IMG/VR virus record: IMGVR_UViG_3300030329_004407
Coordinates: 1 to 28,492 of that record
Source: a virus
Direction: 5' to 3' (one strand)
Length of the DNA stretch: 28,492 nucleotides
In this document: in pieces, positions 8,498 through 11,756 of the stretch
Numbering within the stretch: the stretch's first letter is position 1
How the letters are laid out: each line of letters begins with the position of its first letter
Translations under genes and position numbers: made by a program
The notes under the pieces: generated by a model
Seen by the model: the letters and a program-made list of their open reading frames with translations, nothing else
The model's database searches: none
Told to the model about the DNA's origin: nothing

Positions 8498-8787
8498 GAT
8501 TGCCAACGTTTTTTAATGTCCTCCCTAAACAGAAACGCGGCCGCGCTTTTCGAAAAGGCGTCCACTTCCTCTTCTCCGGTCCACCAGTTCGAAGCGTGCC
8601 GAAATTCGTGCAATATCACTTCGACCGCTTCTTGGCCGGTCAAATCATCAGCAATTAAAATGGTGGGGTTTTTTTCGTGCGGGTTGGTGCAATAGCCGAA
8701 TTCCCCATCGGGCAGGGCGCCGGTAAATTTCACCCGGTACGTTTTGCCGTTAATGTCGTGGGCAAATGTTTTTTTTCTAGCGGGCAT
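8494..8787 (-). CDS. Small zinc metalloprotein with HExxH motif
   Basis: The 97-residue product has a beta-rich N-terminal half (NGKTYRVKFTG, GEFGYCTNP, PTILIADD) and the helix VEVILHEFRHASNWW, in which H60, E61 and H64 form an HExxH zinc site. Glutamates at 72-74 in the following helix could be the third ligand. Such short HExxH proteins in phages resemble the catalytic part of SprT/ImmA-like metallopeptidases. There is no DNA-binding domain attached. It overlaps the RuvC-like gene upstream and the phosphoesterase downstream. Peptidase activity is plausible; its target is unknown. Confidence 0.75.
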   Translation of the reverse strand: MPARKKTFAHDINGKTYRVKFTGALPDGEFGYCTNPHEKNPTILIADDLTGQEAVEVILHEFRHASNWWTGEEEVDAFSKSAAAFLFREDIKKRWQS

Positions 8788-9214
8788 TGTTTGCCCCCGA
8801 CGTTTGGCGGCAATATTCCGCCAACAACAGCGCGTCGGAAATTGCGTGTGTACACTTAATCGTGGGGAACAATTCTTGGGCGCGTTTCTTGGTTACGTTT
8901 TTATTTCCGCCCGTCAAACAGTCTAGGTGGCGCTGCCACTTCGCCGGCGTTACGTCGCTATAGATAATCCCGGCCGCTTCCAGGGCCATAAGCAAACCGC
9001 CGAAGTGAACCCCAAACGCCCACGCCCGGCTTTTACCGTCGTTGGGCATCGAATGGACGCGTTCAATTACGGCGACCGTGTCAACGTCTTCCAGTTCGGC
9101 CAGCGTGCGGAATTGTTCCCGCCGCGTGGTGGGCATTTTCATCGCGTGGGGGCCGTGTTCGTCAATCCAACAAATGCCGCCCGTTTTGCCCGGGTCTATG
9201 CCGATAAATCGCAT
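8777..9214 (-). CDS. RuvC-like Holliday junction resolvase
   Basis: The 145-residue protein has an RNase H-fold pattern: GIDPGKTGGICWID (acid D7), VAVIERVHSMP (E51), the region RAWAFGVHFGGLLMALEA typical of RuvC helices, and the C-terminal acid in ISDALLLAEY (D127). Length fits RuvC-type resolvases. It would cleave branched DNA made during recombination or replication before packaging. It overlaps the replication gene upstream by 19 bases and the HExxH gene downstream by 11, so the three are likely one transcript. Confidence 0.85.
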   Translation of the reverse strand: MRFIGIDPGKTGGICWIDEHGPHAMKMPTTRREQFRTLAELEDVDTVAVIERVHSMPNDGKSRAWAFGVHFGGLLMALEAAGIIYSDVTPAKWQRHLDCLTGGNKNVTKKRAQELFPTIKCTHAISDALLLAEYCRQTSGANNAR

Positions 9215-10071
9215 TTTTCGCCATCCATGACGGTTATAGATTCCATTTCGTCGTAAATGTCACACCCCATTTTTTCAAGTTTCGCCGCGAAGACGCGCCG
9301 GAAGTATGCAAACGGGTTTCGTGGGTGGTGTTCCCTTACTGCGCGGGTTATGTCTTTTAACATTTCGGGACTTTCAAAACGGTAATTTGCCAAAAGGACC
9401 GCGCCTTTTATCAACTGGTTGTCCCGGTCGGAAAGTTTGCGGGCCGGGTTATCGGATAGGGCGGATTTTAGGGTTTCCATTTGTGGGCGGACACGCTGGA
9501 ATTCGTCTTGGGTAATTTCTATTTTATCAACTTTCGGTCGGTCCATCGTTCGAACGTTGTTTGGTTGCGTTGGGTTACGTTCCGTTACGTTACGTTTGGT
9601 TACGTTAGGTGGTTGGTTTTTTGTGGGGGGGTGTTCGCTACTAGGTTCGCTACTAGGTGGGCTACTAGGTTCGCTACTAGGTTCGCTACTAGGTTCGCTA
9701 CTAGGTTCGCTACTAGGTTCGCTACTAGGTTCGCTACTAAGTTGGGCCGCTTTTCGCTGCCTTGCTATCACGCCTTTCGCGAAGTTGGGCGCGTGTTCCT
9801 CCCAATCGTGAATCACTAGCCGCCCCCGTGTTGGCCGGTCCAATATTCGCCGTTCTATTAGTATTTCGATAACGCTGGCGATTTTTCCGCGGTCGTATTC
9901 CATCCACACCGCGATTTCGTCCCAACTATACCGCGACAAATCCCCGTCGATGGCGTGTTTAAGCGCGAAGTGGTAAAGCGTCTCGCACAATCCAACCAAC
10001 TCCCACTTGGAAAAACCCAAGTCCGATTTGGCCAACAAAAATTTGATATGGTCCGGGAATGTGTGAATCAT
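9196..10071 (-). CDS. Putative phage replication initiator with winged helix and SSEP repeat linker
   Basis: The 291-residue protein has a helical/winged-helix N-terminal domain (residues ~10-105, ending VIHDWEEHAPNF), a linker of nine SSEP-type tetrapeptides at 112-147, a short N/T/P-rich stretch with NVTKRNVTERN, and a helical C-terminal domain (~185-290: DRDNQLIKGAVLLANYRF, HPRNPFAYFRRVFAAKL). This two-domain layout with a variable linker matches replication initiators of temperate phages. The linker DNA is highly repetitive, as in lambdoid O genes that hold the origin. It lies in the recombination/replication block. I infer initiator function; a transcription-factor role cannot be excluded. 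Confidence 0.65.
   Translation of the reverse strand: MIHTFPDHIKFLLAKSDLGFSKWELVGLCETLYHFALKHAIDGDLSRYSWDEIAVWMEYDRGKIASVIEILIERRILDRPTRGRLVIHDWEEHAPNFAKGVIARQRKAAQLSSEPSSEPSSEPSSEPSSEPSSEPSSPPSSEPSSEHPPTKNQPPNVTKRNVTERNPTQPNNVRTMDRPKVDKIEITQDEFQRVRPQMETLKSALSDNPARKLSDRDNQLIKGAVLLANYRFESPEMLKDITRAVREHHPRNPFAYFRRVFAAKLEKMGCDIYDEMESITVMDGEKCDLSA
9574..9606. repeat. Four GTTACGTT boxes inside the replication gene
   Basis: GTTACGTT occurs at 9574, 9584, 9589 (overlapping the previous copy) and 9599, that is four copies in 33 bases. They encode the NVTKRNVTERN stretch. Together with the adjacent 12-bp repeats they make a compact origin-like repeat cluster. Confidence 0.7.
9631..9744. repeat. Nine tandem 12-bp repeats (candidate origin iterons)
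   Basis: The plus-strand unit GCTACTAGGTTC starts every 12 bases at 9637, 9649, 9661, 9673, 9685, 9697, 9709, 9721 and 9733. The second copy ends in a variant (GGTGG) and the last reads CTAAGT; the others are identical at DNA level, including third codon positions. They encode (SSEP)n on the minus strand. Near-perfect DNA identity points to recent expansion, selection on the DNA sequence itself, or both. Confidence 0.9.
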
Positions 10072-10445
10072 CCTTGCCCTAGCTCCAATTTAAACTGGGT
10101 TGGTTCCATTGCTTGGGTGCCGGCGTGGTCCGCCATGGCGTCCCGCACGGCCGCGGCGATTCGTTTGTCTAGGTCGGCCGGTTCGGCCACAGGGTACGTT
10201 GTCGCCGCTTTAGCGGGCGCCTTGGCTGGCGCTTGTGTAATCCCATAGAATTTGCAACACACCTCTGCGGCTAGTGGCGAAAAATTCGAAAGCGCGGGGT
10301 GGTGTTTAAATTCTTTACGGACCGCGTCGACAATGTCTTTTGTCCATCGGTAGTTTTGGAAGGTGTCCCGCTTGCCGGCAATCCACGCCGCCGCGGTCAA
10401 AATATCCATATAAGACAGCTTTGACACTTTTTGTTTATCTTCCAT
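10068..10445 (-). CDS. Hypothetical protein of the recombination block, 125 aa
   Basis: The ATG at 10445 has GGAGG about 12 bases upstream. The N-terminal ~75 residues are helical (SYMDILTAAAWIAG, DIVDAVRKEFKHHPALS) with a CCKFYG phrase, followed by an alanine/proline linker (QAPAKAPAKAATTYP) and a helical C-terminus. It overlaps the start of the replication gene by four bases. It lies where a recombinase partner or replication mediator could be encoded, but no RecT, Erf or Red-beta signature is visible. Confidence 0.6.
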   Translation of the reverse strand: MEDKQKVSKLSYMDILTAAAWIAGKRDTFQNYRWTKDIVDAVRKEFKHHPALSNFSPLAAEVCCKFYGITQAPAKAPAKAATTYPVAEPADLDKRIAAAVRDAMADHAGTQAMEPTQFKLELGQG

Positions 10446-10802: not shown

Positions 10803-11756
10803 TCAAACCTCCAAATCGGCGCCGGTGAAATCCAATTCCGCCGGCTGGTCTTCGGTTAATGCCCACTCCGGCACCCGCCACACGGGCGGCATTGCCGGCC
10901 CCGGCCACACGCCGGTTTTTTGGCACGTCTTAACAGTCGCTAACAATTGATCCCGCAACGCGTACCCGGCGGCCAGTGTGTCCGCGTCAATTTCGGCCGT
11001 GTGGCTACAGTACGGCGCCGCGTTTTCGACGGCGATAATTGCGGCCCGGTAATGTTTTCCCGTGAGGGTGCGCAGCCCGTCTAGATAGTGCGATAATTGC
11101 AAGTGATACAAACGCCGCGCCAAATCGTTTGGAAAATCTAACAAGTTGCGGCACGTTTTCACGTCAATCAACCACTCACCGGCGACGCGGTCCGGGCGGC
11201 CTTTACATTCCAAACCGGTCCGCTTGTCTTTCCAGTAAATCGACAGTTCGGAAATCCCGTCCCGGGTCAAAAGGTCGCGGCCGAACGTGTCGCGCCTAAG
11301 TGAACCGATTACGCTTTGTAGTGTGTCCCGTTCGGCGTGCGAAATCACCGTTTTGTCGGCGTGTCGCTTGCGGAACGCTTCGGCGCTTTGGCGAACATAG
11401 GCCGTGTTTTTGCTGGTGGTGGGGGTTCCGTTTTTGGTTTTGTTTTCCGGCTCCCGGTGGAAGTCCGGCGCGACAATGTAGCGGGTGGCAAGTTCGCCCG
11501 CTTCCAGGGCCGCACAGTGGACCAACGAACCCACCCGCATTGCGGCCGACTCCGTAGCGACCGAATCGGCCGGCCGCGCGTAGTGTTGCGGGCTAAGGCG
11601 GGCCAGCTTTAGCCGACTAGCGGCGATGCCGGGCCAGCTACGGTAGTCGTCGAAATCCACATTTTTAAAAACGCCCGGCCGTGGTGGCGCGGGTGGGTCG
11701 GATTCGGGCGCGTTAAAATCGCCGTTCAACATTTCGGCGTGTGTTTTTGCTTCCAT
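10803..11756 (-). CDS. RecE-like PD-(D/E)xK exonuclease
   Basis: The 317-residue protein matches the RecE/exonuclease VIII type nuclease core: MRVGSLVH (H80), SELSIYWKD (E170), GLECKGRPDRV (D189), LIDVKTCR (D198, K200) and LQLSHYLDG (Q220, Y224). These form the PD-(D/E)xK active site with the QxxxY motif. It would resect double-stranded phage DNA ends to create 3' tails for annealing. The N-terminal ~30 residues are proline-rich. A single-strand annealing partner is expected nearby but not recognised; the two small downstream genes are candidates. Confidence 0.85.
   Translation of the reverse strand: MEAKTHAEMLNGDFNAPESDPPAPPRPGVFKNVDFDDYRSWPGIAASRLKLARLSPQHYARPADSVATESAAMRVGSLVHCAALEAGELATRYIVAPDFHREPENKTKNGTPTTSKNTAYVRQSAEAFRKRHADKTVISHAERDTLQSVIGSLRRDTFGRDLLTRDGISELSIYWKDKRTGLECKGRPDRVAGEWLIDVKTCRNLLDFPNDLARRLYHLQLSHYLDGLRTLTGKHYRAAIIAVENAAPYCSHTAEIDADTLAAGYALRDQLLATVKTCQKTGVWPGPAMPPVWRVPEWALTEDQPAELDFTGADLEV

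Follow-up and report, generated by a model that had tools for sequence, protein, structure and literature searches.

A 28,492-base IMG/VR virus record, analyzed here at its full length (hereafter referred to as the window) and likely a fragment of a phage genome, contains a replication initiator gene whose middle part consists of short repeats encoding an SSEP linker. The question raised by this locus is whether the repeats merely specify a flexible protein spacer, or whether the same DNA also serves as the replication origin of the phage. The original prediction, made from the sequence alone, favored the latter and pointed to nine 12-bp repeats and four GTTACGTT boxes. We show here that the gene carries two arrays that are repetitive at the DNA level, and that other initiator genes share this two-part anatomy, among them a family in which the origin is assigned to the gene itself. 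Because relatives keep such DNA repeats and the Tuc2009 family, with its origin within rep, has the same two-array anatomy, we consider it likely that the two arrays are the phage's own origin, lying inside the linker-coding part of its initiator gene; what remains inference is that the arrays are active as an origin, that the protein binds them, and that they divide the labor as proposed.

The initiator gene and its two repeat arrays

The replication initiator (or replisome-organizer) gene spans 9196..10071 on the minus strand and encodes 291 aa. Its N-terminal half matches the PHROG profiles phrog_9474 (“replication initiation protein,” E=7e-11) and phrog_13246 (“replisome organizer,” E=3e-5). 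The assignment as a replication initiator rests on the phrog_9474 match and on gene neighbors in relatives, which include a DnaB-like helicase (L176 and L194), RecT together with Gam (L171), and a DnaC-like gene; in the window itself, no helicase or loader gene was recognized adjoining the initiator. The gene is flanked by genes for a RecE-like exonuclease (10803-11756, minus strand; phrog_412, E=1e-58) and a RuvC-like resolvase (8777-9214, minus strand; phrog_1770, E=2e-23), and this neighborhood constitutes a recombination/replication module.

The conserved N-terminal domain (residues 1-108; 9748..10071, minus strand) contains an HDWxE motif and is predicted by AlphaFold2 to be helical with a wing-like beta hairpin (mean pLDDT 94.5). 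Residues G43, H88, D89, W90, and E92 are invariant in a 47-sequence alignment of this domain and are all present in the window protein. A fold search with the domain returned only weak winged-helix (MarR-like) matches, the best with E=0.026. The C-terminal part, translated from 9196..9558 (minus strand) after the arrays, had no family match; it is expected to contact the helicase or its loader, a role that is inferred.

Between these two parts lie the arrays, which are the only tandem repeats detected by TRF in the 28.5 kb. Array A (9633..9743, minus strand), the proposed initiator-binding iterons, consists of nine contiguous 12-bp direct repeats with the coding-strand unit AACCTAGTAGCG, encoding (SSEP)n. 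The units themselves occupy 9633-9740; seven are exact (GTTCGCTACTAG), one has two mismatches (9657), and one has a single mismatch (9729). TRF assigned a period of 12 and 9.2 copies, and the 12-mer has 10 matches in the window, vs. a mean of 0.92 and a maximum of four in window shuffles; the only match outside the array (10271, two mismatches) is at chance level. Every unit uses AGT-AGC and nearly all use CCT, though both AGT and CCT are uncommon elsewhere in this phage (10.8% of Ser and 5.5% of Pro codons respectively), and this codon homogeneity is real. Array A is in frame and almost perfect, and if it were taken alone, recent slippage, or partial enlargement by slippage, would remain a possible explanation.

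Array B (9559..9606, minus strand) is a ten-unit pentanucleotide array, GTTNN on the plus strand and AACNN on the coding strand, read as NVTKRNVTERNPTQPN, and is the proposed element for strand opening or single-strand capture. GTT occurs every 5 bp (9559, 9564 ... 9604), ten times in phase, whereas 100 Markov surrogates reached at most four. With a 5-bp period, successive units of the coding strand (AACNN)10 shift frame, and all three frames are read in rotation, giving NVTKR-NVTER-NPTQP. For the window gene alone, the lag-5 signal is weak against synonymous shuffles (p=0.035), and the lag-10 signal was reached by none (0/200). The GTTACGTT boxes at 9574, 9584, 9589, and 9599 all fall within this array, and a fifth, isolated one (8892-8899) lies within the RuvC-like gene and is no more than expected by chance. 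The count by itself is weak evidence, since five matches in the whole window were reached by 4/100 shuffles, and what counts is that they are clustered. The boxes simply arise from the pentamer array, which is a second element, separate from the 12-bp array. The spacer between the arrays (9607..9632, minus strand) encodes HPPTKNQPP and, by composition, is GC-neutral with a G/T-rich plus strand. Array B itself is not AT-rich (47% GC vs. 50% for the gene), and local windows near the arrays range from 42 to 60% GC.

Thus, the claim of nine 12-bp repeats in the initiator gene held by both TRF and shuffles, as did the claim that most of them are identical even at third codon positions. The four boxes held as a count, but they are part of a ten-unit pentamer array that had been overlooked. 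We rejected the idea that the GTTACGTT boxes are conserved iterons in different phages, given that the boxes dissolve into the pentamer array and that triple AACGTAAC in viral contigs mostly represents tail-fiber NVTG repeats. Such triples are very common in the (NVTG)n of large tail- or fiber-like proteins (viral-contig loci such as L002-L005 and L007-L010).

Repetitive linker DNA in related initiator genes

Whole-protein searches of phage, viral-contig, and genome-contig sets found no close relative, while a profile search with the N-domain retrieved 13 bacterial-genome loci and 72 viral contigs. The best bacterial-genome loci belong to Pirellulales, Rhodopirellula, and Planctomycetaceae assemblies, from which we infer that the host of the window phage is probably a planctomycete. 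As the search used N-domain patterns only, the linkers of these relatives were not chosen for their repeats. The window protein carries the invariant N-domain residues as well as array A followed by a short-period array in its linker, and thus meets both criteria of the HDWxE initiator family (phrog_9474-like), as defined in this analysis.

In a set of 68 non-redundant genes (the window gene included), the amount of repeated DNA exceeds that of synonymous-codon shuffles in 47 (p<=0.02), and almost all of these repeats lie in the linker. Lags that are not a multiple of three provide the clearest test, because a repeated peptide cannot produce such spacing. Non-simple out-of-frame lags total 64 over the 68 genes, vs. 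1.8 in synonymous shuffles, with peaks at 10, 11, 20, and 22-23 bp. When all lags are considered against the same shuffles, lag 5 is found in 19 genes (vs. 2.4) and lag 11 also in 19 (vs. 1.15), lag 10 is likewise strongly enriched, and lags 7, 8, 9, 13, and 14 each occur in no more than four of the 68 genes; altogether, lag-5 arrays are present in 19-25 of the 68. Neighboring ORFs have scarcely any such repeats, with lag 5 and lag 11 each found in 1/231 compared to 19/68 (p about 1e-12). Because the exact-repeat control was dominated by a single low-complexity gene, score-based controls replaced it.

In all genes that have both a longer-period array and pentamers, the longer-period array comes first (16/16). 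Some relatives have a hexamer tract, (GCCAGA)n or (CCGTCT)n, in place of the pentamers, and both types occur together in only one gene. The linker tracts (EP)n, (SP)n, and (SE)n of L178-L184, L192, and L206-L239 are likewise hexanucleotide DNA arrays at the place of the pentamer array, although, being in frame, they do not allow a DNA role to be deduced. Because relatives keep repeats at the same place while the peptide changes, and many of the repeats are out of frame, the linker in these genes is repetitive as DNA and not merely as protein, which meets the membership criterion that the array be selected as DNA.

The closest comparison comes from the window's own clade. In an N-domain tree with many weak forks, the window falls in a supported set of 10 planctomycete-type sequences, most of which have a 12-bp spacing followed by pentamers. 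The N-domain of one of these relatives, L171, is about 41% identical to that of the window, and its repeat unit (AACCTAGTAGCC) is identical to the window unit at 11/12 positions, although the encoded peptide is SSQP instead of SSEP. Simple descent does not account for this codon identity, since identical N-domain residues of the two proteins share the same codon in only 40% of cases. The 12-mer core common to the window and L171 is partly shared by L169, L173, and L176, with related cores GAGCCTCCTAAG and CAGCCTACTAAG in L173 and L176 respectively. We therefore read array A as an iteron array despite its in-frame repeats, as clade relatives keep the 12-bp spacing and related cores, and the L171 unit encodes a changed peptide with a codon identity beyond simple descent. 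L169, L170, and L171 are closely related phages with near-identical genes whose 12-bp arrays differ in repeat number and unit, and they offer a natural series for studying origin specificity.

Comparison with known origins

In the lactococcal P335 phages TP901-1 (ORF13) and Tuc2009 (Rep2009), the organizer binds regions of direct repeats within the gene that encodes it, and these regions act as ori (PMC8965321), and Tuc2009 rep is annotated as “contains origin of replication.” These proteins resemble the window protein in having an N-terminal domain, a repeat-rich linker, and a C-terminal part. The linker DNA of Tuc2009 rep has 11-bp repeats followed by a pentamer array, i.e., the same two-part order and 5-bp array as in the window, although the repeats differ (11-bp and NNAGN in the Tuc2009 family, 12-bp and AACNN in the window). 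Among 40 non-redundant Tuc2009-type Rep genes, lag 5 was found in 29 (vs. 2.2 in shuffles), lag 11 in 26 (vs. 4.1), and lag 22 in 18 (vs. 1.65), with none at lags 4, 6-9, and 12-14. The pentamer core in this family is nnAGn (A about 100%, G 99%), while that of the window family tends to nnWAR. In the same repeat analysis, the 5/11-bp signal was absent from TP901-1 itself; the two-array anatomy is common, not universal. Alignment of the two N-domains by hhalign was weak (probability 7.8%, E=0.0044), and homology between the two families is not established.

Similar arrangements were also observed outside these families. In six initiator-like proteins whose homology to the window protein is unchecked (L018, L111, L006, L036, L082, and L076), 12-bp AACGTAAC arrays immediately follow a basic stretch. 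A purine pentamer array comes next in L018 and L111, and in L111 AACGTAAC is translated as ERN, not NVT. In L136 / L127, a short ORF contains a 12-bp CAAGCGAACCTA array and, after it, a GCGAAGCTTCGC palindrome, and these repeats are possibly non-coding.

The lambda O gene (ori-lambda) is similar in that origin repeats lie in the linker-coding middle of an initiator gene, and as a positive control our repeat method recovered the annotated lambda O iterons (spacing 20, 24, and 23 bp, partly out of frame). However, lambda has four 18-bp inverted-repeat iterons and an AT-rich tract, whereas the window has nine 12-bp direct repeats and, where lambda has the AT-rich tract, the 5-bp array B, which is not AT-rich. 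Homology of the window protein to lambda O was rejected (hhalign probability 0.1%), and neither criterion of membership in the lambda O family, N-domain homology or an AT-rich tract beside the iterons, is met. In SPP1, direct repeats bound by the initiator gp38 lie inside gene 38 at oriL (PMC6316719), the difference being the AT-rich DUE of SPP1. Lastly, the DnaA-box and DnaA-trio unwinding module of oriC also combines sites bound as double-stranded DNA with an adjacent short-period repeat containing a conserved A, the DnaA-trio being 3'-GAT-5' with a conserved central A (PMC8287927). This is a resemblance only, as the pentamers have a period of 5 instead of 3, a different initiator, and an apparently opposite polarity.

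Rival readings and the proposed origin

An unlikely rival is that the repeats are an ordinary disordered linker, i.e., in-frame slippage giving a flexible Ser/Pro/Glu spacer without any DNA function. In its favor, the SSEP array is in frame with nearly identical copies, as recent expansion would give; (SSEP) and (TTEP) tracts are also found in non-replication phage proteins, and most SSEP arrays of other viral contigs belong to unrelated proteins. Further, the in-frame (EP)n or (SP)n repeats of some relatives, e.g., L180, do not exceed synonymous shuffles. However, this reading leaves unexplained the out-of-frame 10/11/22-bp repeats, the 5-bp arrays running through three frames, and the fixed array order, as well as the rare codons and near-identical 12-mer shared with L171, and it is also at odds with the near absence of such repeats from neighboring genes.

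It is likewise improbable that the 5-bp array is the sole functional DNA element and the 12-bp SSEP array only a protein linker. The pentamers are out of frame and hence clearly DNA-level, while the 12-bp array is in frame; against this, relatives have a 10-13 bp array before the pentamers at this place (with 12-bp spacing in the window's clade), and the 12-mer core recurs in L171 and partly in L169, L173, and L176. Plasmid iteron arrays can titrate initiators, and no data here separate binding from firing, but a role of the arrays in binding the initiator for autoregulation or copy-number control instead of replication start is very unlikely, as the arrays are mid-gene, no second 12-mer was found near a promoter (the match at 10271 being at chance level), and the same anatomy marks the origin in Tuc2009.

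We therefore return to the origin reading. In the mechanism we propose, the N-domain of the initiator would bind the nine 12-bp iterons and wrap or bend the DNA, the duplex would be opened or one strand captured at the adjacent 5-bp array, and the C-terminal part would then deliver the replicative helicase. The iteron-binding step is modeled on lambda O, SPP1 gp38, and Rep2009 (PMC7466680, PMC6316719, PMC8965321). Array A is most likely what the initiator binds, for which there are no binding data, and array B is probably the place of strand opening or capture, an inference without unwinding data. As the linker peptide would be important only for its length and flexibility, its sequence could vary freely, and the DNA could therefore carry repeats.

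Regarding the remaining claims of the original prediction, an origin inside the initiator gene as in lambdoid phages is supported by the relatives, although the protein has no detectable homology to lambda O. That SSEP-coding repeats double as a DNA array is also supported, the linker DNA of relatives being repetitive beyond the peptide, and the comparison of repeats among related phages that had been set as a test came out for DNA-level repeats. That the N-terminal domain binds the repeats remains an inference. The suggested GC-skew check for origin activity gave no clear switch near the arrays, which is uninformative with only a 28-kb fragment.

A 5-bp-period element beside iterons thus occurs in both initiator families studied here and in individual genes from other families. 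We found no description of it by keyword in the literature searched; the original lactococcal phage origin papers were outside that scope, so an earlier description is not excluded. A bolder reading, toward which we lean slightly less than against, is that non-homologous phage initiator families share a two-part origin in linker DNA, in which 10-12 bp initiator-binding repeats are followed by A-centered pentamers (nnWAR / nnAGn) that act on single strands as a phage counterpart of DnaA-trios. If this were true, linker peptides such as NVTxR, KPNQT, KPSQA, RPDQT, RVDKT, EERRG, and SIEEN would simply be what the origin DNA happens to encode. With the 5-bp element, it becomes testable whether phages use a code for single-strand recognition similar to that of DnaA-trios. 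The odd repetitive linker peptides of phage initiators would be explained by coding DNA with a second function as an origin, and the replication origins of uncultivated phages may become predictable from one gene.
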